Assembly (NCBI GenBank): GCA_027068975.1
Contig: JALXFN010000034.1
Location: 1-64,000, forward strand
Direction: 5' to 3'
DNA: 64,000 bases
Source: Campylobacteraceae bacterium
GTDB lineage: Bacteria > Campylobacterota > Campylobacteria > Campylobacterales > Sulfurovaceae
Shown here: positions 6,327 to 52,048 of the stretch, one piece after another
How the letters are laid out: every line of letters starts with the position of its first letter
Position numbering within the stretch: position 1 is the stretch's first letter
Notes under the pieces: generated by a model
What the model was told of the DNA's origin: nothing
Database searches by the model: none
Seen by the model: the letters and a program-made list of their open reading frames with translations, nothing else
Program-made: the position numbers and the translations under genes

Positions 6327-6414
6327 CGTAGGGTGCGATTGCCATCGCACCATTTTTTTAATATTATTTTTATTTTCATGCCATTTTTTGGTGCGATAGC
6401 AATCGCACCCTACG
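6327..6414. repeat. Two-armed palindromic element (REPIN-like) in the zinc uptake operon
   Basis: Left arm 6327-6351 and right arm 6390-6414 are inverted copies differing at one position, and each arm is itself a hairpin (stem GGTGCGAT/ATCGCACC). The outer ends read CGTAGG and CCTACG. A T-rich spacer separates them. The element occupies nearly all of the space between the barrel stop codon and the binding-protein ribosome site. Single arms or relatives occur at 7629-7737, 49087-49110 and 52023-52048. Confidence 0.85.
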
Positions 6415-6416
6415 CA

Positions 6417-7574
6417 TTAAAACGCATGAGCCCCATGAGCTCCAGTCTCAACCAAAAACTCCAAAAGCACTTGATTTTCAGTCTCTCTTACACCACCAAA
6501 TGATTTTGATTTATCTTTTGTTGCTTGAAGTCTAATTTTAGAAAACTCAAACGGTGAATAGCTAACAATGGCTGAATACTTTTTAAGGTCATCTGGCTGA
6601 TTTTTAGCATTTTTATTGAGTGCCTCATATCGTGTTCCAAACTCCCAGTTGCTATCTTTTTTGTAAAGAAGTTGAGTGTAGTAACCACCCTGCTTTTCAT
6701 CATCTCTGTCTCGATATAGATACTCACTCTGCCAAGTTAAATTGCTATAACTGTCAATAGTATGTTTAAGAGTTAATTCACCACCATAAAGCTTACTATC
6801 TTGGTTCTCTTCGGTTTTTCCTGTGGCAACACTTGCCCCTGTTAACACAGAAGTACTATCATCTAAGTCAAACCCACTCTTTAAGTAACCTACATATAGG
6901 TTGTTTTCACTACTCTTTCCAAAACTAAGCTCATTTGTCCCTTGCATCGCTTCAACCCCTGCCATAAAATAGGTATCAGTAGGTGCAACCCAGTGCAGAG
7001 CGACCCCTGCATCGTTAAGCCCCTCTACTCCTAACATCGCTTCATATACTAAAGGCTGTTCAGAGAAGTGTTGAGCGTGTTGGTGAATGGCATTAATACG
7101 ACCAAACCCACTTCTAAACTTCCCCATCTTCATGTCTAAATTGGCAGGAAGTTTTTTAGTAGTTAAGTACGCCTCTTCTATCTCAAATCCTTCAGGGTGT
7201 AGGTGAAAAATCGCATCACTTGTAAAGTAAGGACCAACCTCTGAGTGCATTCCAAGTTCGGCGTAATTAAAATTAAAGCCTCTATTTTTATGAAAAGGTA
7301 TCTCATCAGCCTCTTCAAGAAAACCATCAATACCATACCCCTCATAATCATCATTACTAATGTTTCTTGAAACGGCTGAACCATCTAAGATTAGTGAAAT
7401 ATCAGGAATAAAGCTCTTTTGGTTAAAGCTATTGCCACCGTTAAGTGCCTCTTGTAGTTTTGATTTCTTTTGTGCTTGTAGGGCTTTTTCAAGCTTCTCT
7501 ACTCGTTGTTCTAGCTCTGTTGCTTGTAATAAATATGTACTTAGTAGCGTACACAGTAGTAGTTTTTTTTGCAT
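6417..7574 (-). CDS. Outer-membrane beta-barrel protein linked to metal uptake
   Basis: Start placed at ATG 7572-7574 (protein MQKKLLL), 7 bases after AAGAGGA; the ATG two codons earlier is too close to that site. The 386-residue product has a signal peptide, a short coiled coil (LEQRVEKLEKALQAQ) as in trimeric porins, then alternating beta-strand sequence and a His-containing end (GAHGAHAF). It lies upstream of the ZnuA/ZnuB-like genes on the same strand, which suggests a metal-specific outer-membrane channel (inference). No TonB box or plug domain is evident. Confidence 0.7.
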   Translation of the reverse strand: MQKKLLLCTLLSTYLLQATELEQRVEKLEKALQAQKKSKLQEALNGGNSFNQKSFIPDISLILDGSAVSRNISNDDYEGYGIDGFLEEADEIPFHKNRGFNFNYAELGMHSEVGPYFTSDAIFHLHPEGFEIEEAYLTTKKLPANLDMKMGKFRSGFGRINAIHQHAQHFSEQPLVYEAMLGVEGLNDAGVALHWVAPTDTYFMAGVEAMQGTNELSFGKSSENNLYVGYLKSGFDLDDSTSVLTGASVATGKTEENQDSKLYGGELTLKHTIDSYSNLTWQSEYLYRDRDDEKQGGYYTQLLYKKDSNWEFGTRYEALNKNAKNQPDDLKKYSAIVSYSPFEFSKIRLQATKDKSKSFGGVRETENQVLLEFLVETGAHGAHAF

Positions 7575-7628
7575 GGGCATATCCTCTTAATAAATATAAT
7601 GTATCTTTGTCCTCAATAATGCAAAAAC

Positions 7629-7737
7629 CGTAGGTGTGACCATGTCACACGCCAAATCTCGGTTTAAATTATATGGAAATTACAAATTTCAATTTACGCC
7701 ATATTTGGTTTTGTCGTGTGACACGGTCACACCTACG
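7629..7737. repeat. Two-armed palindromic element (REPIN-like) upstream of the barrel gene
   Basis: Arms 7629-7651 and 7715-7737 are inverted copies with one mismatch. Each arm folds on itself (GTGTGAC/GTCACAC). Complementarity continues weakly inward (CCAAAT / ATTTGG). The outer ends are CGTAGG and CCTACG, as in the 6327-6414 element, but the stem sequence is entirely different. The non-coding stretch 7575-7795 holds nothing else I can recognise. Confidence 0.85.
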
Positions 7738-7795
7738 TATTACATAGAAATAATAAGAACAAATAAGCTGTTAATGGTAATAAAATATGATGGTA

Positions 7796-8068
7796 TTAAG
7801 AGAAAAAAGGAGGAGCGTGACTAAAAAAGCCTTTGCTAACGACCGTAGAGGGTACTTGTTTAGGTCTAAGTATAATCTGCTCAGACAACAATACCACAAA
7901 GTCCAATGTTTCAAAAGATGGAATATCACCACTATTGAGATTTTTAACGACAATACAGACTTTACAGTCATCATGAACCGTTAAATGGTCTTTGTGAATA
8001 TGAGTTGCCGAGAGAAAAGAGGAGCTTATGTAAAACAACAATAGAAAGCGTATTATTATTGGTTTCAC
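7796..8068 (-). CDS. Small exported Cys/His protein
   Basis: A 90-residue protein starting at GTG 8066-8068 with AAGGAGA 5 bases upstream. It has a signal peptide (LLLFYISSSFLSA) followed by HIHKDHLTVHDDCKVC and a hydrophobic segment; the end is Pro/Phe rich. The His and CxxC-type residues suggest metal or redox binding in the periplasm (inference). It resembles in plan the small protein at 51642-51959 ahead of the metal efflux operon. It stands between radC and the zinc uptake genes. Confidence 0.6.
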   Translation of the reverse strand: MKPIIIRFLLLFYISSSFLSATHIHKDHLTVHDDCKVCIVVKNLNSGDIPSFETLDFVVLLSEQIILRPKQVPSTVVSKGFFSHAPPFFS

Positions 8069-8148
8069 TCTCTTCTCCTTTTTGGAAATTTACATGAAAG
8101 TATAGTACAGGGTCTGTTAATTTCTGGTTACACCTGATGGAATAGATA

Positions 8149-8808
8149 TCACAACAACCCCTCATCAGAAAAACTATAATATCCATCTTTAGCCAAGATT
8201 ACATGGTCAAGCAACTCAATCCCTACCAGTTTAGAGACCTCTTCAAGCCTTTGTGTCACAGCCATATCTGCCCTACTTGCACTTAGTGTTCCAGAAGGAT
8301 GATTATGGGCGATGATGATTCCTGCTGCACGGTCGGCAATGGCATCTGCAAAGACCTCTCTTGGGTGAACCAAACTTTGGTTGAGTGTACCTATAAAAAC
8401 TGTTCGTGTGTTGATAATGTGTGATGCACCATCAAGGGTAATGACTAAAAAGTACTCTTGTTGTTTAGTGCTAAACTCTTTTAATTCATCGTAGACATCT
8501 TGGGCTGAGGTTATTTTTTTGTTAGACTGTGAGGTGTAGCGTTTTGCCAACTCAATGGCTGAGATAATCTGTGATGCTTTAGCCACACCCAAGCCATGGA
8601 TATTGAGCAGTTTATCTAAGGATAAATCTGCAAAAGAGTTATCTAACAGAGCTACAATTTCACGTGAAAGTTTACGGACATCTTTACCTTTTATGCCTGA
8701 ACCTATAAGCACAGAGAGAAGCTCATCATTTTTAAGGGCTTGAACACCTTTTTTTACTAACTTCTCTCTTGGTTTGTCATCTTTGTGGAGTTCTTTTATA
8801 GTTTTCAT
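8149..8808 (-). CDS. radC: RadC family protein (JAB/MPN domain)
   Basis: Start taken at ATG 8806-8808; a TTG start at 8826 is possible. The 219-residue protein has an N-terminal helix-hairpin-helix segment (NIHGLGVAKASQI) and a C-terminal JAB domain with the metal motif AHNHPSGTLSASRAD (HxH plus downstream Asp). The full-length RadC layout is intact. The family's role in repair is disputed. It sits at the boundary of the accessory stretch and is transcribed alone. Confidence 0.9.
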   Translation of the reverse strand: MKTIKELHKDDKPREKLVKKGVQALKNDELLSVLIGSGIKGKDVRKLSREIVALLDNSFADLSLDKLLNIHGLGVAKASQIISAIELAKRYTSQSNKKITSAQDVYDELKEFSTKQQEYFLVITLDGASHIINTRTVFIGTLNQSLVHPREVFADAIADRAAGIIIAHNHPSGTLSASRADMAVTQRLEEVSKLVGIELLDHVILAKDGYYSFSDEGLL

Positions 8809-8915
8809 CTTAACATTATAAAACAATTTTTGAAAATAAGCTAGAAATATGTCAAATTGTCATGTTTTAAACAAAGCTATTATTTTAAGAAGAGTTGTTT
8901 GAGGTTTTAATCTTA

Positions 8916-10232
8916 CTAAAACCCCTCAATATCTTCAACAGACAACAAGCGATATTCAACCTCATATCCCTCATACTTTCTAAGTAAATTAACCGATTTT
9001 AAGACCAATGCATCATGGCTAAGTCGTTTAGCAGACAACTTTACTTCACAAAGTAGTAGTTTTTTCTCTATTTCATCAACAGCTACAATGTCTATTTCAT
9101 TTTTATTACCACGCTCCCAGTAGTTTCCTATGCTGGTATATATTTGCTTCTCTTTCAAAAGTTCTATAAAAAGTTTCTCTAAAAATCGACCTTTAAATGT
9201 TGAAAAATCTCGTTCAATAATTCTCTTTAAACGCTCATACCCCTCTGCTTCTACTATAGATTTATATTTGTAGATAAAACGAAACCAAAAAGCTAAAAAG
9301 TTGTCTACTATTTCATACTTTTGTACTTTAGCATTCTCTTTTGCTCCCATGGGTTTGATGCTTTTTATAATATTATAGTCTCTCTCCAAACGACTCAAAT
9401 GCCCAGATATATTTTTTTCTAAAATTGACTCTATTTCAGTTTTAGAGGTTTTTGAAGAGGCGATTAAACTCAAAATAGAAAAATATGTACCATACTCTTT
9501 TCCAAACTCCTCTATGAGTCTGTTTTTCCCCTCTTCCAAAAAAAGTGAATGAGGGGCAATAATTTCATCTATCATACTCTTTGCATCAAAACTCTCATAT
9601 AGAACAAAAAGCTCAATATATTTAGCAATACCACCTGTTAAAACATAAAAGTCCAATAAATTCTCAGGGCTATAGTTGTTGTGGTCTTTCAATATCTCTT
9701 TTAATACAGATACTTTCAGAGGCTTTAGGTCAATTTTAAAATCAATTCGTCCAAAGAGTGGCTCTTTTTTGTCTTCATATATTTTTTTCATCAAGGAGTA
9801 GACCGAACCACAAGCAATCAAGTGGATTTTACTCTCATCTTTATGCAAGTCCCAAAGTTTCTGTATAGTAGAGTATATGGTGCTATTTACTCTATAAAAC
9901 TCTTGAAACTCATCTATTACAAGGGTAAATGGTTCTTTTTTCCCTAACTCCAATAGATACTCAAAAAGCTGTTCAAACTTTCGTATCTCTCCAAAAAGCT
10001 TAACTCCAAGTTTTGACTCTATCTCTTCTGAAAACTCTTCACACAAAAGAGCTTCATTTTTTTTAGAGACAAAGAAATAAAGAGTTTTATCAGAAGAAAA
10101 GTCTTGCAGTGCCAAAGTAGTTTTACCCACCCGTCTACGCCCAATAATCATGGTCATAATGGCATGATTATTTTTTAATTTATCAGCTCGTTTTAAAATA
10201 TTAAGTTCATCATCTCGATTGTAAAATTTCAT
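8916..10232 (-). CDS. AAA-type ATPase with DUF234/DEXX C-terminal domain
   Basis: A 438-residue ATPase of the archaeal-type ATPase group. Walker A is GRRRVGKTT (about residue 31) and Walker B is LVIDEFQEF (about 105). A winged-helix-like middle follows (SKTEIESILEKNISGHLSRLERDYNIIKSI). The C-terminal part has WERGNKNEIDIVAVDEIEKKLLLCEVKLSAK, a PD-(D/E)XK-like nuclease signature (E-ID-E-K). Such genes are scattered accessory genes of unknown function, sometimes linked with defence or mobile DNA. A symmetrical AT-rich site lies immediately upstream. It has no operon partner. Confidence 0.75.
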   Translation of the reverse strand: MKFYNRDDELNILKRADKLKNNHAIMTMIIGRRRVGKTTLALQDFSSDKTLYFFVSKKNEALLCEEFSEEIESKLGVKLFGEIRKFEQLFEYLLELGKKEPFTLVIDEFQEFYRVNSTIYSTIQKLWDLHKDESKIHLIACGSVYSLMKKIYEDKKEPLFGRIDFKIDLKPLKVSVLKEILKDHNNYSPENLLDFYVLTGGIAKYIELFVLYESFDAKSMIDEIIAPHSLFLEEGKNRLIEEFGKEYGTYFSILSLIASSKTSKTEIESILEKNISGHLSRLERDYNIIKSIKPMGAKENAKVQKYEIVDNFLAFWFRFIYKYKSIVEAEGYERLKRIIERDFSTFKGRFLEKLFIELLKEKQIYTSIGNYWERGNKNEIDIVAVDEIEKKLLLCEVKLSAKRLSHDALVLKSVNLLRKYEGYEVEYRLLSVEDIEGF

Positions 10233-10270
10233 ATAATAACCTTTGTTATGATAACATGGGTTATTATAAC
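10233..10270. promoter_or_regulatory. Nested palindrome upstream of the DUF234 ATPase gene
   Basis: Directly before the ATPase start, ATAATAACC (10233-10241) pairs with GGTTATTAT (10259-10267). Between them lies a smaller palindrome GTTATGATAAC (10245-10255), and GTTATTATAAC (10260-10270) is itself symmetrical. The arrangement of several GTTAT half-sites looks like a multi-site operator, possibly for autoregulation (inference). It covers the ribosome site region. Confidence 0.5.
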
Positions 10271-10317
10271 ATAAATATTATTTTTTTAAATTAAGGGTTG
10301 TCGTCAAGGGTCTCGTT

Positions 10318-11181
10318 AAGGGTCAGACGTTGAATATTCACCTACATCATCCCCTTAACCACCTTAGAAACCAAAGAACGAGAAACATTCAAATACTTAG
10401 CCAAAGCAATCTGTGTATATCCATCTTCCAAAGCTTGAACCATTGCTTCATTTCGTTCTTGAATGCTGTTTACCTCTTCAAAATGTTCCTCTAAAGTTTT
10501 TGAAAAAGCAATTGTATTTACACTGTTTTTTACAACAACTTTTTGATTTTTGATTTTTTCAAGTAGCTCTAAATCTTCCTCATTGAGGCTAACACCAATT
10601 ATATCTTGCACATTTTCATAATCAAGCTCTTCTATAAGTTTAGAGTGCAAAGCACAAGGAACAGGAGTAACCCCATTGGCAATAACTGAACCTAAAGTGT
10701 AAGGATACTCTTCTACCTTTTTGACTATTCCTGCTTCTATAGGGTTTTGTTCTATGTAGCGAATGAGAGTATAGTAGTACTCATCACTATTGATATACCT
10801 AGAGTAGTATCTACCCTGCCAAAAGTGACCTGAACGTTTCTGTTTTTTATTAGCATAGATGGCGTAGTTTCCATTTATCTGTTTCATAAAAGAGGAGAGG
10901 TTTTCTCTTTGTGTCTCTACTAAAAGATGAAAATGGTTACTCATGAGACAATAATCATGCAAAACTACACTATATGCTCTACACGCTTTACAGACTATTT
11001 TTAAAAACATCTCATAATCGTCACTATCTACAAACACCTCCGAACAGTTCACTCCACGGTTAATAACATGATGATACCCTGCTAAGTCTATTCTTGGTTT
11101 TCTTGGCATTTTTTGTCTCGTTTATTATTTTATTTTTTGTATTGTAGCGTGTTTTTAGTGGATATTCAACGTCTGACCCTT
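10318..11181 (-). mobile_element. RAYT transposase gene bounded by inverted REP-like ends
   Basis: Left end 10318-10344 and right end 11157-11181 are inverted copies of about 25 bases, with one mismatch in the core GGGTCAGACGTTGAATAT. The stop codon of the transposase gene (10342-10344) is inside the left copy. AAGGGT also recurs at about 13-base spacing just left of the unit (10293-10324). A third, solo copy in the same orientation as the left end lies at 13313-13339 with two mismatches. This is the expected arrangement of a REP-associated tyrosine transposase with its own repeat ends. Confidence 0.8.
10342..11109 (-). CDS. REP-associated tyrosine transposase (Y1_Tnp, RAYT)
   Basis: A 255-residue protein of the IS200-like Y1 transposase superfamily. 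The N-terminal MPRKPRIDLAGYHHVINRG is typical of RAYTs. The metal-binding HxH (HUH) motif is MSNHFHLLVE (about residues 56-65). The candidate catalytic Tyr lies in the YTLIRYIEQNPIEAG helix. The C-terminal helix-turn-helix (YTQIALAKYLNVSRSLVSKVVKG) is likely for DNA recognition. These enzymes act on short palindromic REP sequences. The gene looks intact. Confidence 0.9.
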   Translation of the reverse strand: MPRKPRIDLAGYHHVINRGVNCSEVFVDSDDYEMFLKIVCKACRAYSVVLHDYCLMSNHFHLLVETQRENLSSFMKQINGNYAIYANKKQKRSGHFWQGRYYSRYINSDEYYYTLIRYIEQNPIEAGIVKKVEEYPYTLGSVIANGVTPVPCALHSKLIEELDYENVQDIIGVSLNEEDLELLEKIKNQKVVVKNSVNTIAFSKTLEEHFEEVNSIQERNEAMVQALEDGYTQIALAKYLNVSRSLVSKVVKGMM

Positions 11182-11240
11182 TAGGAACAATACACTACTT
11201 CCATCAGACCCAATTCCAATCAACAAAAACAAAATCAAAC

Positions 11241-12047
11241 CTATCCAAACTTCATCTCTAAAATAGCCACAAAATTTCGCCGTCGTTTATATTCACTCTT
11301 TAAGCGTTCAACTCTTAAATGAAACTCATCTTCATCTATCAATGACTTTAACTGAAACAGAGCATCTGCAATAGCTCTATAGTAATTATCTCCTGTAGTT
11401 CTTAAATTCTCTTCAATTTGAGCATTAAAAAACTCCATCGCCTCTTTTGGATAGGCTTCTTTGTTTTGCTTAAAGAAACTCTCTTTTTTCTCTGGTAATT
11501 TTTTTAACAACGCAAACATCTCATCTATGCGTTTTTCTCTCTCTAAATATTTATAGTATGCATACAGGTCTCTCTTTTTCCAAAGTGCTTCTAGCTCTTT
11601 TTTATTGTCAACTCTTTTAAGTCCATCAGCAATAAAATCAAAACTTCTATAGCCTCTCTCCTCAATAGCTTTACGAACAAAACCTCTAAATCGTTCATCT
11701 GAAATATCACTAAGTTTTGCAAGTTGTTCCACATACTCTACATCAAATCTCTCTTTGAGTAAATCTTCAACAATCTTTATGGCTAACTCTTTTTTATCAT
11801 TCTCCAAATAGATATAAATTAGCTTTTTATAAACACCCTCTAAATCTTGAGCCAACAAAAAACTCTCTTTCTCTTCAAATGTTAACAACTCTTCAATAAA
11901 ATAATAAAAGCTCAAAGGGCTATCGTTATCAAAATATTGCAAAACTTCTCTTTTATCTTCTATATCTAAATTCTCATAAGAGAAATGTAAATAGTTAGAC
12001 TCCTCCAAAGCCCATAAACAATCGAAGCTGTACCTCTTTGTTTTCAA
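11241..12047 (-). pseudogene. Hypothetical helical protein, C-terminal part of a frameshifted gene
   Basis: A 268-codon reading frame that can begin only at TTG 12045-12047 inside the end of the next frame. It has no ATG near its start and no separate ribosome site. The content is charged and helical, resembling TPR/HEAT-like repeats (LYAYYKYLEREKRIDEMFALLKKLPEKKESF). The 119-residue frame upstream ends in LRLFMGFGGV, and sense resumes here at about NYLHFSYENLDIEDK in the +1 frame. The two probably form one protein of about 370 residues broken by a one-base change. I do not recognise a function. Confidence 0.55.
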
Positions 12048-12354
12048 TTTTATTAATCAGAGCCATTATCTCATTAGAAAAAATATCAAAATCAAAATAC
12101 TCCTCTCCTCTATAGTCATAATGGTCAATCCAAAGATACCCCTCATCTTGTTTTGCTTCAATCGCTACTGCCATCTCAAAAACCATATCCATAACCTCAT
12201 CAGGGTTTTGATTGACAAATATTTTTAGATTTTCCATATATTCAGATATTTTTTCTTGAAACTCATCAGGACTATAGAGTAACTCTTCATCAGCCATATC
12301 ATACTTAATACTTGTAGAAGCAATCTCATTAATTTTTAACTTGTTTTCTAACAT
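11995..12354 (-). pseudogene. Hypothetical protein, N-terminal part of a frameshifted gene
   Basis: A 119-residue acidic protein (EELLYSPDEFQEKISEYMENLKIFV, then DEGYLWIDHYDYRGEEYFDFDIFSNEI). It overlaps the 268-codon frame by 53 bases in a different register. The overlap and the lack of a proper start in the downstream frame suggest a frameshift near 12000 rather than two genes. If translated as it stands it would be an isolated acidic domain. No family is recognised. Confidence 0.5.
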
Positions 12355-12422
12355 TTTTTATTCTTTTTAGTTTTTTATTATTTCACTGTAAAGATTTTTA
12401 AATTGTCGATAAGAGGTTACGA

Positions 12423-12659
12423 CTACTCCCCTTCTTCCTCTTCAATTATCTTAATCACTTGTTTCACATAAACTACCTTCACAGGTTTTTTATATGGAAT
12501 GGTAAGTGCTATTGAATCCTCTTTAGTAAAAACATAATGACTACCACCATTATTAATAGCTGTATATCCTATGTTCTCTAAGATTTTTTTCAAATCTTCA
12601 AATCTTACATTTTTGGGATTATTTTTGATAGCTTCGATTAATTTTTCTTTTTTACTCAT
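12423..12659 (-). CDS. hicA: HicA-type mRNA interferase toxin
   Basis: A 78-residue double-stranded-RNA-binding-fold toxin. HicA features are visible: FEDLKKILENIGYTAINNGGSHYVF with the catalytic His in GGSH, then IALTIPYKKPVKVVYVKQVIKIIEE. HicA cleaves mRNA and is neutralised by HicB. Here the HicB gene is on the opposite strand, 143 bases away and divergent, which is not the usual same-strand hicAB arrangement. The length is usual for the family. Confidence 0.8.
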   Translation of the reverse strand: MSKKEKLIEAIKNNPKNVRFEDLKKILENIGYTAINNGGSHYVFTKEDSIALTIPYKKPVKVVYVKQVIKIIEEEEGE

Positions 12660-12802
12660 TGTTAAAATCTCCTAAAAAATTGTGATTTATTTTATAAATA
12701 TTTTCCTTAGTGAGAAAACTTTTTTGCTATTTTTTCATAAAGACTTCTATTATTTAAAGAACAGTGTGTATAATATTATATACATACCAAAAGGAACTAT
12801 TT
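12660..12802. promoter_or_regulatory. Shared hicA/hicB divergent promoter region with near-palindrome
   Basis: The 143-base gap between the divergent toxin and antitoxin genes. A near-perfect palindrome around TGTATAATATTATATACA (about 12770-12787) contains a TATAAT-like -10 for the hicB side. The RHH end of HicB could bind it (inference). The ribosome sites are AAAGGA for hicB and AGGAG for hicA. Confidence 0.5.
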
Positions 12803-13159
12803 ATGAAAAGCATAGATTATTATTTAAATTTAGATTATGAAATTATTATTAGAAAAGTACCCCAAGAAGATGGAGGTGGTTATTTTGCTTATTATAAAGA
12901 TTTTAAAGGTGTAATGGGTGATGGTGAAACTGCTGATGAAGCTATAGAAGATGTAAAATCTGCATTCAAGTCTTATTTGGAAGTAGCTTTAGAAAATAAA
13001 GAGAAGATAAATGAGCCTTCTCATCTTATGAAAACTAAACGAATTAATATCACTGTACCAATTTATGCACTTGAAAAGATAGATAATTATGCTAAAAGCT
13101 TAAATATGAATCGTAGTACTTTTTTGGTAGAGAGTGCTTTAAAGCAAGTCTCTTTATAG
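12803..13159 (+). CDS. hicB: HicB-type antitoxin with C-terminal RHH domain
   Basis: Starts at ATG 12803-12805 after AAAGGA. The 118-residue product has the partially degraded RNase H fold of HicB (DYEIIIRKVPQEDGGGYFAYYKDFKGVMGDGETADEAIEDVKSAFKSYLEVALE), then a ribbon-helix-helix DNA-binding part (KRINITVPIYALEKIDNYAKSLNMNRSTFLVESAL). It should bind HicA and repress the shared promoter. Divergence from its toxin gene means it could autoregulate both directions from one site. Confidence 0.85.
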   Translation: MKSIDYYLNLDYEIIIRKVPQEDGGGYFAYYKDFKGVMGDGETADEAIEDVKSAFKSYLEVALENKEKINEPSHLMKTKRINITVPIYALEKIDNYAKSLNMNRSTFLVESALKQVSL

Positions 13160-13198
13160 AAAAAATCTATTCTAAAAGAAGAAGCCTAAACCTCTTCT

Positions 13199-13306
13199 TT
13201 ATCTCCTATAAACCACCAAATACCCAACAGGCAAAACCAAAAGTGTCAACAGCGTAGAGCTAATAATCCCCCCAACAATCACCACAGATAACGGATACTG
13301 AATCTC
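13199..13306 (-). pseudogene. 3' fragment of a CusA/CzcA-type RND transporter gene
   Basis: Read on the minus strand, the last 35 or so codons (EIQYPLSVVIVGG...YLVVYRR and stop) reproduce the end of the intact RND gene at 46011-49058. The DNA match is nearly exact, with only about four differences over roughly 100 bases, silent sites included. It breaks off abruptly a few bases before a solo REP copy. This is the remnant of a second RND copy or a recent duplication, cut at its 5' side. Confidence 0.85.
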
Positions 13307-13312
13307 GTTTCT

Positions 13313-13339
13313 AGGGGTCAGTCGTTGAATATCCACCTA
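13313..13339. repeat. Solo REP copy related to the RAYT ends
   Basis: The core GGGTCAGTCGTTGAATAT matches the RAYT left end (10318-10344) with two mismatches over 25 bases and the same orientation. It sits 7 bases from the break of the RND gene fragment. It may mark the point of the rearrangement or be a mobilised single REP. Confidence 0.8.
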
Positions 13340-13398
13340 TATGTTCCAAAAAACTCTCTTTACCAATATCATTTATTACTATTAGTTTCGACAAAATT

Positions 13399-13551
13399 TT
13401 ATCCCCATTGTAATTTACGCTCAACCCTTTTAGTTGCACAATCTGTCAAATAAGAGTTAATCAAATTTTGATAAGGAATCCCTACTTTTTTAGCCAATGC
13501 TTTAAAGTAACTAATGGTATCAGGGTCAAAAAGCATATCAACAAAAATCAT
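13399..13551 (-). CDS. Orphan CopG/BrnA-like antitoxin fragment
   Basis: A 50-residue frame on the minus strand whose ATG (13549-13551) overlaps the TGA of the vWA gene (ATGA), with GAGGAGGAG upstream. Its sequence (LFDPDTISYFKALAKKVGIPYQNLINSYLTDCATKR) matches the C-terminal half of CopG-type antitoxins of the IPYQTLIN group. The usual N-terminal part is missing and no toxin is adjacent. It is either a very short coupled gene or a truncated one left by the same rearrangement as the nearby RND fragment. Confidence 0.55.
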   Translation of the reverse strand: MIFVDMLFDPDTISYFKALAKKVGIPYQNLINSYLTDCATKRVERKLQWG

Positions 13552-14510
13552 CTCCTCCTCGGCAAAGACCCAAACCCAATCAACAAAAACAACAACCCAA
13601 GCACAAGAGGATAGTAAAAAAGCTCTTCTCTGTCATGAATGACCACTTCACCCTTATCTTTACTTTGGTGTTGGGACTTTATGGTGCTTACTAGCTCTTC
13701 TATGTCGCTTTCACCTGAGTTGGCTAATATGAATGCTCCATTGTTTTTAACTGCTATCTCTCCTAGTTCATCGTTTCTTTGACTTATGATTAGCTTTCCA
13801 TCTTTCATAATGGTTTTTCCAGTTTTTCTTAAAACAGGAGCCCCCTCTTTGGTTCCTACTAAGACTACATATAGAGCGATATTATTGGCGTTTGTTATCT
13901 TTTCAAATTTGGCTAATTGCTCTTTGTCTCCACCATCTGAAAAAACGACCAATATCTTTGGCTTTTTCTTCTCTAGTAACTCAACTGTAAACTCAGCCAA
14001 AGCTGTAAAGTCTGTGGAACCCATGTTTATGTATTGGTCATTTACACCATTAACCAAGAGTTTTAAGGTCTCTTTATCGGAAGTAAAAGGAGCCAATATA
14101 AAAGAGGAGTAAGCAAAAGCTACGAGGCTTATGTCATCATTTGGCATGTTGTTTAGTAGTTGGTTTATCTTCTTTTTGGCAAACTCTAAACGGTTTGGAT
14201 ACATATCTTTAGAACGCATGGAACCAGAGATATCTAAGGCAACTACTACCGAAAGCCCCTCTAAATGGACAACTTTGTCTCCATGGTCTATAACAGGACG
14301 GGCTAATGCCACCACCATAAAAAAGAGTGCAACGACCAAGATAAGATGACGAATAACCAAAGGCAAAGAGTCATCACCAGCTGTTAAACGTGCCAGTACC
14401 TTTTTGTCAAAAATCTGTAAAAAATTATCTTTATGGGTCAAAATAAAATAGGTAAATATCGCTAAAGGAATCCCCATCATCCATAAAACTTGAGGTGTTA
14501 CAAAACTCAT
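13548..14510 (-). CDS. vWA-domain membrane protein (BatA/BatB family)
   Basis: A 320-residue protein with N-terminal helices (MMGIPLAIFTYFIL and LVVALFFMVVALARPV), a von Willebrand A domain with MIDAS motif VALDISGSM, and a C-terminal helix before LPRRR. It belongs to the Bat set, which a MoxR-type ATPase is thought to act on. Its ATG overlaps the stop of the other vWA gene (ATGA). In related genomes a TPR protein follows; here the orphan antitoxin frame does. Confidence 0.85.
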   Translation of the reverse strand: MSFVTPQVLWMMGIPLAIFTYFILTHKDNFLQIFDKKVLARLTAGDDSLPLVIRHLILVVALFFMVVALARPVIDHGDKVVHLEGLSVVVALDISGSMRSKDMYPNRLEFAKKKINQLLNNMPNDDISLVAFAYSSFILAPFTSDKETLKLLVNGVNDQYINMGSTDFTALAEFTVELLEKKKPKILVVFSDGGDKEQLAKFEKITNANNIALYVVLVGTKEGAPVLRKTGKTIMKDGKLIISQRNDELGEIAVKNNGAFILANSGESDIEELVSTIKSQHQSKDKGEVVIHDREELFYYPLVLGLLFLLIGFGSLPRRR

Positions 14511-15427: not shown

Positions 15428-15809
15428 CAATTATATGCACCAAAAGGTCATACTGACGCAGAGTTACCTCATCGACCACTAAAGGAACCTCTTTTTTATA
15501 TTTATAAGCCTCTAACATCGGGAGAATCTGACTGTAAATCTCTGCTACTCTTGGCTCATCAGAGAACATTCTTCCCAAATAAGTCACCTCATAGGCTGCC
15601 TGTTTAGGATGTTTCCAATTAATATTTTTTATACGTTTCAGGTAAACTTTTTTCATGTTTTGTTTACGATTTAAAAAAATTTTTTTGAAAAACATAAAAA
15701 GAAGGGCTAAGATAACAACTCCCATAAAAAGAGCCAACACTATAAAAATAGTGTAACTATCATCAGGTATCTCCAAAAGGGGTTTTATGTCTCGTAGTTC
15801 ACCATTCAT
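15414..15809 (-). CDS. DUF4381-like single-span membrane protein of the Bat operon
   Basis: About 131 residues, with start ATG 15807-15809 overlapping the upstream TGA by one base. One strong membrane helix (YTIFIVLALFMGVVILALLFMFF) is followed by a basic stretch and a helical cytoplasmic tail (ELRDIKPLLEIP at the front, HPKQAAYEVTYLGRMF behind). Position and plan match the small protein between DUF58 and vWA genes in other Bat operons. No catalytic motif is seen. Confidence 0.6.
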   Translation of the reverse strand: MNGELRDIKPLLEIPDDSYTIFIVLALFMGVVILALLFMFFKKIFLNRKQNMKKVYLKRIKNINWKHPKQAAYEVTYLGRMFSDEPRVAEIYSQILPMLEAYKYKKEVPLVVDEVTLRQYDLLVHIIDETV

Positions 15810-16636: not shown

Positions 16637-16645
16637 CTACTAAAC

Positions 16646-42857: not shown

Positions 42858-42867
42858 ATGTATCTCC

Positions 42868-44591: not shown

Positions 44592-44872
44592 GTTTCCTCC
44601 TCATTTTTATAATTATCATAAGTTATGATTATTTTAGTTAATAACCTAATTTATTAGAACAATAGTCTATAAAGTTTTTGGTTAATTGTTAATGATAATG
44701 TCAATAAAATCACATTTATGGACTTTAAGCCGTAACGGTGTGTAGTTTTTTCTACTGATGATTAGGAAAATTTTATTCTTTAATTACTTTTATTGATGAT
44801 TAAAACCAGATAGTTTTACTCCTATTTATAAAAGTTAGCTATACTTCTCAATATTTGATAAAGGATTAAACA
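44592..44872. promoter_or_regulatory. Divergent regulatory region of the molybdoenzyme operon
   Basis: A 281-base AT-rich gap between the divergent Fe-S subunit and DUF309 genes. A near-perfect palindrome ATCATAA-G-TTATGAT (44615-44629) lies about 25 bases ahead of the Fe-S gene start and could be an operator for a dimeric regulator. A TTAATGATAATG motif lies at about 44691-44702. The rest is AT-rich sequence without recognisable features. Confidence 0.45.
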
Positions 44873-45256
44873 ATGCTCAAAGAAAATCATGACTTAAAAG
44901 GAGCGTTAAAGAGTTATTTAACACTTCTAAAATCAGAAGATTATTTTGATGCTCATGAAGCCCTAGAGGAGGCATGGCATCCCCTACGAAAAACCAATCA
45001 CCCTCTTAAAAACTTAGTAAAAGGTCTTATTAACGGAGCTATTGCCTTTGAGCATATTAAACGAAATAGAGAAAATGCCTATGAAAAAGCATCTAAAGTT
45101 ATCAACTCTTTTGAACGACATAAACATTTACTTATAGAGGGGATTGAATATTTTGAGCTTTTTGAAGAGGCTTGTTTTGAAGTAGAGAAGTTGAAACAAA
45201 ATCTACTTCTTACAAAAATTCACCCAATGAAACCACCCGATATTCATCGCTCTTAA
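44873..45256 (+). CDS. DUF309 protein
   Basis: A 127-residue helical protein with the DUF309 signature DYFDAHEALEEAWHPLRKTNHPLKNLVKGLINGAIAFEHIKRNRENAY. The His and Glu of HExxE look like a metal site, but no activity is established for the family. Its last 47 bases overlap the 3' end of the convergent PIN gene. Confidence 0.8.
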   Translation: MLKENHDLKGALKSYLTLLKSEDYFDAHEALEEAWHPLRKTNHPLKNLVKGLINGAIAFEHIKRNRENAYEKASKVINSFERHKHLLIEGIEYFELFEEACFEVEKLKQNLLLTKIHPMKPPDIHRS

Positions 45257-45596
45257 ATCGGCTCAACCTATCATCATTAGTAACAAATAAATCAGCCTTA
45301 GCATATACAGACGAAGCCAACTGTACAGCATCAGGAGTTTTAATGTGATAATCAGCTCTAACTTTAGCAAAAAGAGAGGCTATTTCACTATTAAGTTCTA
45401 GCAATTCTATCTCTGAAAAAAAATCTTTATAAGTCTCAACCAAATCAAGGCGATTATCTTTATATGGTTTGGTTAAAATCTCTCCAAGTGTTAAGGTAGA
45501 GGTGATAACTTCATATCCATTCTCTTCTAAAAATTGCAACAGATTATGGACTTTGTTCAGATGTAGTTCATTCTCTTCAATGAGGTAGATAAACAA
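45210..45596 (-). CDS. PIN-domain toxin (VapC-like), probably start-broken
   Basis: The only in-frame start is TTG 45594-45596, which gives a protein lacking the first catalytic Asp. Just upstream in the same frame, ahead of the TTG, are codons for AFLDTNL, the normal PIN beginning, but they follow a stop. An ATG at 45626-45628, overlapping the antitoxin end, would read MSGKKAFLDTN if the run of five A (45615-45619 on the complement) had six. The rest is normal (STLTLGEILTKPY; TPDAVQLASSVYAKADLFVTNDDR). Either inactivated or slippage-dependent. Confidence 0.7.
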   Translation of the reverse strand: MFIYLIEENELHLNKVHNLLQFLEENGYEVITSTLTLGEILTKPYKDNRLDLVETYKDFFSEIELLELNSEIASLFAKVRADYHIKTPDAVQLASSVYAKADLFVTNDDRLSRFKSDEYRVVSLGEFL

Positions 45597-45617
45597 ATTG
45601 GTATCTAAAAATGCTTT

Positions 45618-45866
45618 TTACCACTCATCTCTTAACTCTTTTATATACGCATCAGAGTCTATACCTTGATATAGCTCTTTACCAATACCTTGTAAGCTTT
45701 TTATTTTGGCAATAGAATTTTTTTGATAAATTTCATCTCGTGGAGCAATGTTTTTATAGCCTTCTACTTCTTGTTTGATATTAAGCAAATTTTTTGGAAG
45801 ATTTTCAAGAAAAAACATAATATGAGAATAGATTGAACTATTTATTTCAAGAGTTACTTTATACAT
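45618..45866 (-). CDS. Antitoxin of the PIN pair
   Basis: An 82-residue protein just upstream of the PIN gene. The end DAYIKELRDEW is typical of antitoxins that thread into PIN toxins, and the front is short beta/helical (MYKVTLEINSSIYSHIMFFLENLP). No clear DNA-binding motif is seen. Its stop is immediately followed by the first PIN codons. The call rests mainly on position and size. Confidence 0.6.
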   Translation of the reverse strand: MYKVTLEINSSIYSHIMFFLENLPKNLLNIKQEVEGYKNIAPRDEIYQKNSIAKIKSLQGIGKELYQGIDSDAYIKELRDEW

Positions 45867-45983
45867 AATTGAAACTCCTTCTTTTTTGTCTTAGTATATC
45901 AAAAAAGGTTTAAATCTTATAAACCTGAGTTCAACGGAATACCATATCCACAATTTTACGAGGTTTTTCATAGGCAACAAATC

Positions 45984-46002
45984 CCCACTTTTATCAAGTG
46001 GG
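45984..46002 (-). terminator. Hairpin downstream of the RND gene
   Basis: CCCACTT (45984-45990) pairs with AAGTGGG (45996-46002) with a 5-base loop. It lies 9 bases past the RND stop codon in the efflux operon direction. Only a weak T-rich tail follows. Confidence 0.55.
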
Positions 46003-46010
46003 AACTCAAA

Positions 46011-49000
46011 CTACCTCCGATAAACCACCAAATACCCAACAGGCAAAACCAAAAGTGTCAACAGCGTAGAGCTAATAATTCCCCCAACAATCACCACAGA
46101 CAACGGATATTGAATTTCAGCCCCAACACCCGTAGCATAAAGCAGAGGTAAAATCCCAAACAGCGTGGTAAATGCCGTCATTAAAACAGGTCGTAAACGA
46201 AGAAGTGTTGCTTCTATAATCACCTCTTTTAGTGCTTTTTCAGGGTACTTCTCTCGCAATTCATCAATAAAAGATACTAAAACAATTCCATTGAGTATGG
46301 CAATAGCAAAGATGGCTAAAAAGCCAATAATAGCTGAAACAGAGAGGTAGATTTCTGAAATAATAAGAGCTACAATCCCACCCATTAACCCAAATGGTAC
46401 ATTCATAAGCACCAAAAGAGCCTTTTTCATGGAGTTAAAAGCTGTGTAGAGTAGAAGTAAAATCAGCATAATCGTCACAGGAATAATTATCATTAGTTTC
46501 TGCGTTGCCTCTTGCATATTTTTAAAATCTCCTGCCCACTCGATGTAGTAGCCTGATGGCATTTTGACTTTTTCTTTTATGCGTTCGTTGGCTTCGGCTA
46601 CAAGTGAGGCAACATCTCGCCCTTCGGTTTCAATTCCTAAGACCATATAACGGTTAAGATTTTGTCGTTTGATAAATGAAGCACCTTGTCGCACTTCGAT
46701 ATTACAGACATCTCTAAGCCTGACGATAGAGCCTTTTTCGGTGCGTAAGTTAATGTTTTTAAGCTCTTCAATCTCTTCTCTTGCATCTTTTAGTTTTGCT
46801 ACAATCCCAAACCGTTTAACCCCCTCTATCTTTTGGGTTATTGACTCCTCTCCAATCCCATTTCTAATAAACTGCATAATCTCCGAGACCTTTACACCAT
46901 ACCGTGCTAAGGCTTGATAGTTTGGACGGATAATAATATTGGCTTGACCCAATTGTGGTTCTACTTCGACCTCTTCAAGCCCCTCTAACCCCTCTAGTGC
47001 CTCTTGGATTTGTTTGGAGATTTTAGCCATAACCTTTTGCTCTTCTCCATAAATCTTAATGGCAAGTTCAGACTGAACCCCCTCTAAAAGCTCCTCTATT
47101 CTCATAGCAATGGGTTGTGTTGGTACAAAACGGACATGTTCAAAGGTGTGCGTAACATCTTTGGTAATCCTCTTGGTTAAGGCAGGTAAATCCTCAATAT
47201 TTGGCTTTAAGGTTAGAAGTACCTCCATGTAATTTGGCTGTGCTGTCTCTCCCTTTTCGCTTCGTCCTATCATACTTAAAACTGATTCTACATTAGAGGA
47301 GTAGTTTTTTAAGATATGTTTTTCTAGGTTTTGAGCTGTCTCAACCGATTGAGAAAGGGCAGTTCCAGGAGGAGCAATAACACGGAACATGATACTCTCT
47401 TCGTTAAGCGTTGGCATAAACTCTCGCCCTTGCAGGGTTAACTGATAGGCTAAAAAAGCAAATGCAATCATGACCGTCAGAAGTACAATTTTTGGAAGAT
47501 ACAATGCCCCTTTTAAAAAGGGAAGATAGACCCACTTAATCGCTCTCATTACTATATTTTCTTGAGATTTTTTAGGTTGTAAAAGAGCCAAAGCAAGAAC
47601 AGGTACAAGCACCAATGCCACCAACAACGAACCCAACATAACAAAGACAATATTCAGAGCCATTGGGCTATAGAGTTTTCCTGCCAAACCATCAAGACTA
47701 AGCAGAGGAATAAAGACAGCAACAATAATCAAAATAGCAAAAGTAGTTGGTGTCGCCACCTCTTTAGCTGAGTTTAAAATAAGCGTTGTTCGGTTTGCCG
47801 TTGGGTTTTCATTGAGGTGTCGATAGGCATTCTCTACCATTACAATCGTCCCATCAACTATCATACCTACAGCAATGGCTAAACCACTTAAACTCATAAG
47901 GTTTGCAGAGAGTCCAAAATATTCCATTAACCCAAATGCAATCAACAACGAAAGGGGTAGAGAGACAATGACAATAAACGCTGAACGAAGCTCAAAAAGA
48001 AATAGAAACAGCACAATAGCCACTAAAACAATCCCACTTTGCAGAGCAGAAGAGATGGTATTAACAGCCTTCTTGGTCATGGTGGTTCTGTCGTAAATAA
48101 GTTTTATCTCTACCCCACTTGGAAGTGAAGCGTTAACCTGCTCCATCTTCTTTTTTAAGCCCTCAACAACTCTGTTTGCATCGGTTCCTGTTCGTTGAAG
48201 CACCATACCCATAACCGACTCGTTACCATCAATGCTAATCGCTCCAAAACGAGGTGCTACTCCTTGTTTCACCGTTGCCACATCACCAATAAGAATGGCA
48301 CGACCTCCAAAAGATTTAACCACCGTTGAGCGAATATCATCAAGTGTTTGATAGAATCCAACCCCACGAATTTGGTACTGTTCACGGTTAAACTCTAGGT
48401 ATTGTCCACCTGCACTAATGTTTGAACTCTCTAGTGCGTCAACAATGTCACTATAGGTTACCCCTTTAGCTTGAAGTTTACGAGGCTCAATCACCACCTC
48501 ATACTGCTTCTCATAACCACCCCAAGAGATAACCTCTTCAACCCCAGAGACTGATTTAAACATCGGTTTTACAAAAAACTCTTGAAGCTCTCGTATCTCT
48601 TGAAGTGATTTTTTACCTGTAGTATCTTTAAGTTCATACCAAAAGACCTGCCCTAATCCTGTAGTATTTGGTCCAAGAGTTGGTTTGCCCCAACCGTTAG
48701 GAATATCTACCGATAAAATTCGCTCACTCACCTGCTGACGCAAAAAGTAGATGTCATAACTGTCTTCAAAAAAGACTGAAACATAAGAGAGTCCAAAAAT
48801 AGAGTTACTCATAATACTCTTAACCCCTGCCATACCTGAAAGAGCTGACTCGATAGGATAGGTAATGAGTTTTTCAATATCTTCAGCCGAATTTCCTGCA
48901 CTCTCTGTGTAGATGACTACCTGTTTAGGAGTAATATCGGGGAAAGCATCAATAGGTACATTTTGATAGGAGCGATAACCTAGAAAAGAGAGTACTATAA

Positions 49001-49058
49001 AAAGTACGATAACCAAGAGTTTGTACCTCAGAGAGAGGTCTATAATTTTATTTAACAT
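46011..49058 (-). CDS. Heavy-metal efflux RND transporter (CusA/CzcA family)
   Basis: A 1015-residue inner-membrane proton antiporter with the usual 12 helices and two large periplasmic loops. HME-RND signs: N-terminal PIDAFPDITPKQVVIYTESAG, RPNYQALARYGV, and helix 4 GMIVDGTIVMVENAYRHL with Asp and Glu. It pumps metal ions such as Cu+, Ag+, Zn2+ or Co2+ with the adaptor and outer-membrane genes just upstream. A near-identical fragment of its 3' end lies at 13199-13306. Confidence 0.93.
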   Translation of the reverse strand: MLNKIIDLSLRYKLLVIVLFIVLSFLGYRSYQNVPIDAFPDITPKQVVIYTESAGNSAEDIEKLITYPIESALSGMAGVKSIMSNSIFGLSYVSVFFEDSYDIYFLRQQVSERILSVDIPNGWGKPTLGPNTTGLGQVFWYELKDTTGKKSLQEIRELQEFFVKPMFKSVSGVEEVISWGGYEKQYEVVIEPRKLQAKGVTYSDIVDALESSNISAGGQYLEFNREQYQIRGVGFYQTLDDIRSTVVKSFGGRAILIGDVATVKQGVAPRFGAISIDGNESVMGMVLQRTGTDANRVVEGLKKKMEQVNASLPSGVEIKLIYDRTTMTKKAVNTISSALQSGIVLVAIVLFLFLFELRSAFIVIVSLPLSLLIAFGLMEYFGLSANLMSLSGLAIAVGMIVDGTIVMVENAYRHLNENPTANRTTLILNSAKEVATPTTFAILIIVAVFIPLLSLDGLAGKLYSPMALNIVFVMLGSLLVALVLVPVLALALLQPKKSQENIVMRAIKWVYLPFLKGALYLPKIVLLTVMIAFAFLAYQLTLQGREFMPTLNEESIMFRVIAPPGTALSQSVETAQNLEKHILKNYSSNVESVLSMIGRSEKGETAQPNYMEVLLTLKPNIEDLPALTKRITKDVTHTFEHVRFVPTQPIAMRIEELLEGVQSELAIKIYGEEQKVMAKISKQIQEALEGLEGLEEVEVEPQLGQANIIIRPNYQALARYGVKVSEIMQFIRNGIGEESITQKIEGVKRFGIVAKLKDAREEIEELKNINLRTEKGSIVRLRDVCNIEVRQGASFIKRQNLNRYMVLGIETEGRDVASLVAEANERIKEKVKMPSGYYIEWAGDFKNMQEATQKLMIIIPVTIMLILLLLYTAFNSMKKALLVLMNVPFGLMGGIVALIISEIYLSVSAIIGFLAIFAIAILNGIVLVSFIDELREKYPEKALKEVIIEATLLRLRPVLMTAFTTLFGILPLLYATGVGAEIQYPLSVVIVGGIISSTLLTLLVLPVGYLVVYRR

Positions 49059-49086
49059 TTTTTATTTCCTTGCACAAAACACAATT

Positions 49087-49110
49087 GGTGCGATAGCAAT
49101 CGCACCCTAC
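49087..49110. repeat. Single arm of the GGTGCGAT palindrome family
   Basis: The stem GGTGCGAT/ATCGCACC followed by CCTAC is identical to the right arm at 6390-6414 over 24 bases. It lies in the 202-base gap between the RND gene and the adaptor gene. The other arm is absent. Confidence 0.85.
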
Positions 49111-49190
49111 AAATGGCTATTAATTAACCAAAAAAACATCTAAAAAAAGAAAGCTCAATTAACAGCGACAACCATTCGCACTTTCTTTTT

Positions 49191-49255
49191 TTTGGTTACT
49201 TTTCTTTCTTTAGTTGCGAAACAAAGAAAAAAAAGTGACAGAAAGAGCAACAAAA
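49191..49255. repeat. T/A-rich palindromic element
   Basis: A T-rich half (ACTTTCTTTTTTTTGGTTAC and on to CTTTAGTTGCG) faces an A-rich half (GCGAAACAAAGAAAAAAAAG, then TGACAGAAAG) in inverted symmetry around GTTGCGAA. It resembles a palindromic intergenic element seen in many bacteria. Located in the RND-adaptor gap, where it could form a long mRNA hairpin. Confidence 0.6.
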
Positions 49256-49260
49256 ACAAA

Positions 49261-50439
49261 TCAATGCCCATGTCCCCCAAGAGAAGACTTCAACAAAAGA
49301 GACTTAATATAATAACTCTTATCAGAAACATAATCCGTATGCTCATCAAGCCCCTCAATCGCGACAAACTCATCATTTTGTTTCAAAATCTTCACCACAT
49401 TTAAATTATAAGGTATCTCTTCTTCCTCATGCTCATGTTCTCCATGATGCCCATGAGACTCTTTCTCTGCATGATGTTCTTTTTCATGAGCTTTATGATT
49501 TTCATGCTCCTCATGCTTTTCGTGATGTTCTTCATGTTCACCCTCTTCATCCTCATGATGTTTAGAGGTAAAAACAACCCACTCATTTTTAAAAAATGAG
49601 AGAGCCGATTTTTTCACAGCCAAATATGATTTTGGCTCACCTATAGAAAGCTTAGAATCAACATAAGCATTGACAAAAAGATTCTTTACAGGCTCATCTA
49701 AAGAAGAGAGAACCTGCATCTGTTGTGTCTGTTCATCTAGCTGGGGTAAAATCTGTGAAATATGCATTTTATAGTGTTTTCCACCATAAAAGAGTTGCCC
49801 CTTGTTCCCTACTTTTACCTCATTGACATAGTTCAAAGGGACATAAGACTTCACTAAAAAACTTGACCCACCTTTCACAATAGAAATCAATGCTCTGTTT
49901 GCATCTACAACTGAGTTAAGAGGTACTAAAATCTCTGCTACCTTACCTGAACCCTGTGCATAAATGGTATAGTTATTTTTAATATCACCTTTAGTTGAGA
50001 CACCTAAAAGCTTTAATTGAGTTTTGATGCTCTCAATTTGAGATAATACCTCATCTCGCTCTCTCTGCTCTCTGTTGACTCGCTCTAAAGACTCTAACCC
50101 TTGATTGTAGAGATTTTTTAAAATCTTATAGTTCTTATTGTGAATGGCTAACTGTTTTCTAAGAAGTTTTAGTTCTGAAGAGAGTTTAGAAAGCTCTAAA
50201 GACTCTATAATGGCAATGGCTTGACCTCGCTTGATGCTTTGCCCCTGCTTTACCAAATATTTAGTAACTCTTCCCCCAACTCTAGCCATCACTGACTCTT
50301 TGGCTGAACGGAGTTGAACAATTTTACTATTAACGGTAATACTATCTTCAAAAAGTTGTCTTTCCACCTCATCAATAGGAACCTCTAGCCCCCAAAGGCT
50401 CTGTGCTAAAAGTAATACTCCTGCTATTTTTCTACTCAT
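49261..50439 (-). CDS. Efflux adaptor (membrane fusion) protein with His-rich loop
   Basis: A 392-residue periplasmic adaptor (CusB/CzcB type): signal peptide, lipoyl-like halves around a helical hairpin (KLSSELKLLRKQLAIHNKNYKIL ... REQRERDEVLSQIESIKT), and a beta-barrel part. Residues 294-341 are almost all His, Glu, Lys and Asp, and the protein ends GHGH; both probably bind metal. It bridges the RND pump and the TolC-like channel. Its start overlaps the upstream gene by 8 bases. Confidence 0.88.
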   Translation of the reverse strand: MSRKIAGVLLLAQSLWGLEVPIDEVERQLFEDSITVNSKIVQLRSAKESVMARVGGRVTKYLVKQGQSIKRGQAIAIIESLELSKLSSELKLLRKQLAIHNKNYKILKNLYNQGLESLERVNREQRERDEVLSQIESIKTQLKLLGVSTKGDIKNNYTIYAQGSGKVAEILVPLNSVVDANRALISIVKGGSSFLVKSYVPLNYVNEVKVGNKGQLFYGGKHYKMHISQILPQLDEQTQQMQVLSSLDEPVKNLFVNAYVDSKLSIGEPKSYLAVKKSALSFFKNEWVVFTSKHHEDEEGEHEEHHEKHEEHENHKAHEKEHHAEKESHGHHGEHEHEEEEIPYNLNVVKILKQNDEFVAIEGLDEHTDYVSDKSYYIKSLLLKSSLGGHGH

Positions 50440-51598
50440 TATATGCTCCTTGAAGATAGTTGATTTTTACAATATTTTTCTCTATAGAGAGTCTGGTTGC
50501 CAAAAGCTCCTCCTTAGTCAAAAGCAGAGACTTTTTAAGATTGCTTAGTTTTAAAATATTAACCTTAGCGATAGAGTAGCCCTTTTGATAGAGTTCTAAA
50601 AGTCTCTTTTGCTCCTCTTCTAAAGCTTCATATTGAGCTTTTAAATGCTCTGCTCTCTCCATCTCTTTATGCAACTGCTCTAACTCTAAGTTTAAAGCTC
50701 TCTCTTCACTCTCTCGTGCTATTTTTTGGTTATTGAGTTCAATCTTTTCGAGTTGTTTCTCTTCTAATTTTTTATTAAAAATAGGCATAGGAAGAGAGAC
50801 ACCTATACGAAAAACGTCTTGGTCGGGTTCAGCCTCTATCTCTGAAAATAGCTCTATGCTATCTATTGTGTTAGATACAACAGCCAACTTAGCTTTAGCA
50901 ACCTCCTCTTTTTTCTCTCTAAGTTCTAAGAGTGGGTGAGTTGAACTGCTAGAGGTTTCAAAAAACTGATGCTCTGCCTCTATTTCAATAGAGTTCTCAA
51001 CATTAGCTAAACGCAAAAGCTCATTTTTTCGCTTTAAAACCTCTAACTCCAACGCTTTAAGCTCACTTAAAATCTCTTGCTCTTCAATTTGGGCTTGATA
51101 TAGTTCACTTTTTGCTACTGTTCCACCCTCAAAACGACCTCTAGCTATAGATACGATTTTTTGAGAAATTTCTAATGCCTCTTGTTGTAAATCTCTCTTT
51201 TTAACTGCCTCTTTATAAGAGAGATATAGGCTGTTGAACCTATAGATAAACTCAGCCTTTGAGAGCTTGAAGTTTTGCTCTTGCTCCTCTATTTGAGTTT
51301 GAGTAACTCTTTTCTTATCCTCTTTGACCCAAGGAAGCAGAAGCGATTGACTCGCCCCTACTCTAGCTCCTATTTGGTTCTCTCTTAAAAGTCTTCTATT
51401 TGAGAAATCTGAGAGTTCAAACTCTACATTTGGATTCTCTAATCTTGTAGTTATTTGCCCTTGGAGTCTAGTTTGCTCCTCTTGGCTCTTTGCTATCTGG
51501 AGTTGTGCGTTGTTGTTTATGGCAAGTTCGAGTAGTGCATCATAATTTTCGGCATGAAGCATAGCTACACAGAACAGACCGATGATATTTTTTTTCAT
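50432..51598 (-). CDS. TolC-like outer-membrane efflux channel
   Basis: A 388-residue outer-membrane factor of the CusC/CzcC kind: signal peptide, then two helical repeats rich in Glu/Lys/Leu (YDALLELAINNNAQLQIAKSQEEQ; IARGRFEGGTVAKSELYQAQIEEQEI) and a conserved PMPIFNKKLEE in the second repeat. It forms the exit duct of the tripartite metal pump. First large gene of the efflux operon. Confidence 0.88.
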   Translation of the reverse strand: MKKNIIGLFCVAMLHAENYDALLELAINNNAQLQIAKSQEEQTRLQGQITTRLENPNVEFELSDFSNRRLLRENQIGARVGASQSLLLPWVKEDKKRVTQTQIEEQEQNFKLSKAEFIYRFNSLYLSYKEAVKKRDLQQEALEISQKIVSIARGRFEGGTVAKSELYQAQIEEQEILSELKALELEVLKRKNELLRLANVENSIEIEAEHQFFETSSSSTHPLLELREKKEEVAKAKLAVVSNTIDSIELFSEIEAEPDQDVFRIGVSLPMPIFNKKLEEKQLEKIELNNQKIARESEERALNLELEQLHKEMERAEHLKAQYEALEEEQKRLLELYQKGYSIAKVNILKLSNLKKSLLLTKEELLATRLSIEKNIVKINYLQGAYNE

Positions 51599-51641
51599 AA
51601 GTGTTCCTAAATATAATAATTTTTTGAGATTAAAAAACTAT

Positions 51642-51959
51642 TTAGGCGATAGGAGGTCGAAAGGTGTTATTAAAGTAAAAAGTGTCGTTAAGATGTAAAT
51701 TGTACTCTATGGTTGTATCAAGAGTAATCTGTTCAAAAAAAGAGAGGGTATCTGGTAGTAAAAAAGAGAGATGAAACATAAAGTGCGTCTCACAACAGTT
51801 ATCTTCATGCACGTCATGATGTTCAGAAATGGCATGGTCAAATTCACTAACGTACTCTTTTACTGAACAGTGATTCGCAGAATCACTCTCTAAAACTACT
51901 CCATGTGCTATGGAAAAGAACATAACAATGAGAAGGAGTAAGTTTATTAGCTTTTTCAT
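51642..51959 (-). CDS. Small exported Cys/His-rich protein ahead of the efflux operon
   Basis: A 105-residue protein with a signal peptide (INLLLLIVMFFSIAHG), then HCSVKEYVSEFDHAISEHHDVHEDNCCETHFMFHLSF and an end YFNNTFRPPIA. The His/Cys content suggests metal binding in the periplasm. It lies 43 bases upstream of the channel gene on the same strand, so it may be a metal-sensing or buffering partner of the pump (inference). Confidence 0.65.
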   Translation of the reverse strand: MKKLINLLLLIVMFFSIAHGVVLESDSANHCSVKEYVSEFDHAISEHHDVHEDNCCETHFMFHLSFLLPDTLSFFEQITLDTTIEYNLHLNDTFYFNNTFRPPIA

Positions 51960-52022
51960 AAGGGTATTATATCTATGAAATATAAGTTTTGGCTAAGTAA
52001 GTTAACGAAGTTTCAATTTGAC

Positions 52023-52048
52023 GGTGTAGTTGAGGACTACACCCTACG
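52023..52048. repeat. Palindrome of the CGTAGG family at the end of fabH
   Basis: The stem GGTGTAGT/ACTACACC is followed by CCTACG. The fabH stop codon (52044-52046) is part of the repeat. Flank and geometry are shared with 6327-6414 and 7629-7737, but the stem sequence differs. On the minus strand the hairpin follows the stop, so it may also end or protect the transcript. Confidence 0.75.

Follow-up and report, generated by a model that had tools for sequence, protein, structure and literature searches.

What are the short palindromes that recur in this Sulfurovaceae genome with a common outer end but different stems, and how might they have come to stand where they do? In the window, i.e. 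the whole stretch of 64,000 nucleotides that was analyzed, an earlier note had pointed to four such elements, two of them double-armed in the manner of REPINs; all four are present with perfectly paired stems, and two are indeed inverted doublets. We regard them as almost certainly GTAG-tagged REPs and REPINs of three stem families, spread in trans by cognate RAYTs (TnpA_REP).

Anatomy of the four elements and their common end

The two doublets each consist of an inverted REP pair and a spacer conserved as one unit, as defines a REPIN. The first (6327-6414, no strand assigned) belongs to the GGTGCGAT family and lies 2 bp past the stop codon of an ORF at 6417-7580 on the minus strand. Its two inverted GTAG-headed REPs face outward with GTAG around an AT-rich spacer, forming 26-nt arms that are 96% complementary; both REP arms, GTAG[GGTGCGAT]tgcc[ATCGCACC] at 6328-6351 (plus strand) and GTAG[GGTGCGAT]tgct[ATCGCACC] at 6390-6413 (minus strand), match the GGTGCGAT pattern with 0 mismatches. 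The second (7629-7737, likewise unstranded) is of the GTGTGAC family, and the whole unit of ~107 bp recurs in its own and in related genomes. Its 28-nt arms are 93% complementary and contain GTAG[GTGTGAC]cat[GTCACAC] at 7630-7650 (plus) and GTAG[GTGTGAC]cgt[GTCACAC] at 7716-7736 (minus). The other two elements are single REPs on the minus strand: GTAG[GGTGCGAT]tgcY[ATCGCACC] at 49087-49110, in which T rather than C stands before GTAG, and GTAG[GGTGTAGT]cctca[ACTACACC] at 52023-52047, a member of the GGTGTAGT, or GGTGTAG(T/A)C, family. The TAG within the GTAG head of this last REP is also the stop codon of a 332-aa ORF at 52044-53042 (minus strand).

A shared CGTAGG outer end had been proposed for the four, and this proves one base too long on the outer side. 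What all of them share is GTAG and, behind it, the initial G of the stem; because the copy at 49087 reads TGTAGG, and because C precedes GTAG in only 52 of 86 genome copies (T in 27, another base in 7), the conserved head is GTAG and not CGTAGG. The hexamer itself is found at 11 places in the window, where 5.5 would be expected, and five of the 11 are element ends. The position of the head directly 5' of a perfect short palindrome is that of GTAG-tagged REPs (GTAG or GTRG). Assignment to the CGTC-tagged REPs, which have a CGTC head and a CCA-type tail, was rejected because the heads of the window elements are GTAG.

Copy number, placement and compensated stems

The elements could in principle be unrelated chance hairpins that happen to have CGTAGG in common, the outcome named beforehand as fatal to the proposal, and CGTAGG by itself is merely twofold enriched in the window. 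However, six perfect hairpins (stem of at least 7, loop of 2-6) directly abut GTAG in the window, whereas 100 dinucleotide shuffles gave 0.07 on average and never more than 1; other four-base heads have at most 4 such hairpins each. Pattern searches of the draft genome (2.78 Mb, 146 contigs, 96% complete) with up to 2 mismatches, which miss diverged copies, located 40 sites of the GGTGCGAT family, 29 of the GTGTGAC family and 42 of the GGTGTAG(T/A)C family, and reversed-pattern controls for all three stems in the same draft gave zero matches. With tens of copies per stem against none in the controls, coincidence is refuted and retains practically no probability. A scan of the window against Rfam at gathering thresholds returned no match.

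These copy numbers, together with a chiefly extragenic location, are those of GTAG-tagged REPs, which occur in tens to hundreds of copies. Of the 89 copies examined, just 8 are fully contained in an ORF of at least 100 aa (a figure that may truly be lower, since some ORF calls over-extend), compared with 86% of positions chosen at random in these loci. Most copies are found between tandem genes or at overlapping ORF ends.

Within each family the stems vary and stay paired. The GGTGCGAT/ATCGCACC stem has the compensated variants GGTGTGAT/ATCACACC, GGTGCAAT/ATTGCACC and GGTGCGTT/AACGCACC, amounting to three compensated positions (C-G to T-A, G-C to A-T and A-T to T-A), and there are three such positions in the GGTGTAG family and two in the GTGTGAC family; the variants were read off the results of the pattern searches, and because some of them are related by descent, these counts are not independent events. 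Covariation scores lie above 500 of 500 shuffles for the GGTGCGAT and GGTGTAG families and above all but 6 for GTGTGAC, and they also exceed those of slid structures. Because variants inside a family are compensated on both sides, the hairpin structure is under constraint, which would be expected if a transposase reads the folded single strand. The earlier note had argued from the changing stems that simple copying does not explain them. For the four elements this argument fails, since each stem represents its own, separately copied family, three in all; in the narrower sense of compensated variants inside each family it stands.

Structural constraint could also arise if the hairpins were selected as RNA elements, either terminators or mRNA stabilizers at gene ends, in which case structure rather than mobility would be what is maintained. 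The placement described above suits such a role, as do the copy that supplies a stop codon and the covarying stems with some G-U pairs. This account nevertheless fails to explain why an unpaired GTAG is conserved at the head, why there are doublets whose outer ends are conserved, why every stem is matched to a RAYT of its own, and why sites in relatives are empty or occupied by another family. We therefore consider it unlikely as an explanation of the elements; some copies may serve an RNA role secondarily.

Transposase partners of the stem families

RAYT/TnpA_REP proteins are HUH/Y1 nucleases and relatives of IS200/IS605. Six Y1 transposase genes were identified in the window's genome, two of which are short RAYTs, here L005 (contig C137) and L006 (contig C6). 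Both belong to the RAYT protein family, which is defined by HUH and a catalytic tyrosine, and score 153.5 and 152.6 bits, respectively, with the NCBIfam model REP_Tyr_transpos (NF047646; cut-off 80). The sole PDB match of L006 is TnpA_REP (4ER8, E=2.7e-21), in an alignment that spans the PDHFHMI and YMQNNPVKHG regions, and the nearest relatives of the RAYTs are found in Sulfurovum and other epsilonproteobacterial MAGs. The REPs on either side of L005 are of the GGTGCGAT family and those on either side of L006 of the GGTGTAG(T/A)C family; one of the latter extends over the 3' end of the L006 gene. Each is thus a REPtron, i.e. a RAYT flanked by REPs of one family, and the search for a linked transposase that had been suggested succeeds for these two stems. 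In matching the family model and being flanked by cognate REPs, the two genes resemble described RAYT/TnpA_REP systems (Nunvar et al. 2010, PMC2817692; PMC8266576; 4ER8); the L005 gene differs from these in containing a GGTGCGAT-family REP in frame (G000:C137:36196-36219), which adds a stop-free stretch.

A RAYT accompanied by GTGTGAC REPs was not found in the window's genome (146-contig draft, 96% complete), the gene having been either lost from this genome or missed by the draft. The association was seen only in two loci of relatives (L165 and L166). In the same-genus genome G001, GTGTGAC REPs at 2277 and 2827 flank a RAYT at C25:2364-2804, and in G010, also of this genus, REPs at 1258 and 1322 lie beside a RAYT at C137:1365-1805. 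In pseudomonads, REP classes persist in genomes that have lost the corresponding RAYT, which relatives retain (Nunvar et al. 2013, PMC3686654), and GTGTGAC REPs without a RAYT here and with one in relatives follow the same pattern.

The window contains a RAYT-like gene of its own (10342-11109, minus strand), and this Y1/RAYT relative, ~3 kb off and scoring 79.6 bits against the REP_Tyr_transpos cut-off of 80, might be thought to mobilize the four elements. It is bounded, within 10313-11186, not by GTAG hairpins but by an unrelated 29-nt terminal inverted repeat that is 90% complementary and contains AAGGGTCAGACG, whereas the matching stems sit at the short RAYTs elsewhere in the genome. We rejected it as the cognate transposase on account of the unrelated terminal repeats, and its involvement is highly improbable. 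The gene resembles the TIR-flanked 'TIRYT' genes with GGGGWSAS motifs (PMC3733652); further copies of one of its terminal repeats stand at 13313-13336 and on C48.

RAYTs and GTAG hairpins are coupled across genomes. Protein similarity yielded a set of 36 RAYT loci, of which 28 have GTAG hairpins no farther than 300 bp from the gene and 19 have them on both sides, compared with 11 of 293 background bins; automated flank detection overlooked REPs near L161 and L166 (an imperfect stem; a wrong ORF picked) that are visible otherwise. RAYT distance correlates with stem distance (Mantel r=0.41, a value reached in 0 of 5000 permutations). The close RAYT pair L006 and L105 both have GGTGTAG stems, and the stems of another close pair, L005 and L164, are GGTGCGAT and GGGGCGAT. 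This shows that changes of stem accompany transposase lineages, with the co-divergence stemming partly from shared ancestry.

Other palindromes accompany further Y1 genes. In same-genus genomes, the RAYTs of a second clade have CTCG-headed rather than GTAG-headed palindromes at their flanks, e.g. CTCG[TCCCAAAGCT]cc[AGCTTTGGGA] (L168 1401-2062; L170 1401-2035; L171 1238-2220; also L190 and L169). Another Y1 gene (L004 1330-2203, G000:C101) has at least 8 palindromes CATGGACT/AGTCCATG (or CGTGGACT), with GGAG- or GGGG-like heads, distributed over both sides, and at L001 951-1091 (G000:C123) a GTAG[GTTCGGT] REPIN lies immediately past the 3' end of a longer Y1 gene.

We know of no assay of any Campylobacterota RAYT, and the mechanism that we propose draws for single-strand recognition, cleavage and mobilization on assayed systems such as that of E. 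coli. REPs and REPINs would be short non-autonomous elements disseminated in trans by a RAYT, which would recognize, in single-stranded DNA, the GTAG head together with a hairpin particular to the REP family, cut the strand and rejoin it at the GTAG hairpin, and move the REP doublet into new intergenic sites. GTAG and the palindrome both contribute, to a degree that differs among groups (Corneloup et al. 2021, PMC8266576). Each of the three stems marks a REP family with a different cognate RAYT, and recognition of the folded strand by the transposase would account for pairing that persists while stems drift.

Corresponding sites in relatives and known systems

Comparison of the same sites in relatives supports mobility, visible there as differences in state rather than as events. 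At the 6327 site, G011 and G045 have a REPIN of the same GGTGCGAT family, G003 has another REPIN, GTAG[GTTCGAT], and G021 has other palindromes, one of them CTCG-headed; in G014, G015 and G017 the element is absent, with 0-3 bp beyond the bare flanks. Neither G011 nor G044 has the 7629 REPIN, and in G003 its place is taken by a GTTCGAT element. Two relatives have the same REP as at 52023 in the corresponding position. Eight doublets of the GTGTGAC family, 106-108 bp long, have common ends and variable interiors, and BLAST locates the complete GTGTGAC unit at many unlinked positions in genomes of relatives. A recurring unit with constant ends and sites that are empty, filled or swapped is what a mobile doublet predicts. 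The intergenic spots might also serve as docking sites open to exchange, with one REP family supplanted by another of different stem or by a CTCG-headed palindrome served by another RAYT clade. This idea is doubtful; if true, it would imply RAYT-mediated replacement at existing palindromes instead of independent insertions.

The GTAG superfamily has been described in all divisions of the Proteobacteria, epsilon included, with Sulfurovum named as a host and with repeat-specific RAYT loci ('REPtrons') in species that have several families (Di Nocera et al. 2013, PMC3733652); the elements therefore belong to a known class. They share with it the unpaired GTAG at one end, the perfect 7-9 bp stem with a short loop, complementary changes among stem variants, arrangement in doublets, intergenic location and several families per genome; the comparison covered this architecture rather than the exact stems GGTGCGAT, GTGTGAC and GGTGTAGT. 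As in REPINs, an inverted REP doublet with conserved ends and a variable spacer is the replicating unit, and Pseudomonas fluorescens SBW25 likewise has, in a single genome, three families and a matching transposase for each (Bertels and Rainey 2011, PMC3116915); here the bacterial group is different, the spacers are AT-rich and copies number in the tens, not hundreds.

The picture of REPs is unchanged by these elements. What they provide is a natural data set of several stem families and cognate RAYTs in one Campylobacterota genus, including an orphaned family and sites that are empty, filled or swapped among relatives, through which transposase-hairpin specificity and RAYT loss become testable in a group where such systems have been little studied.
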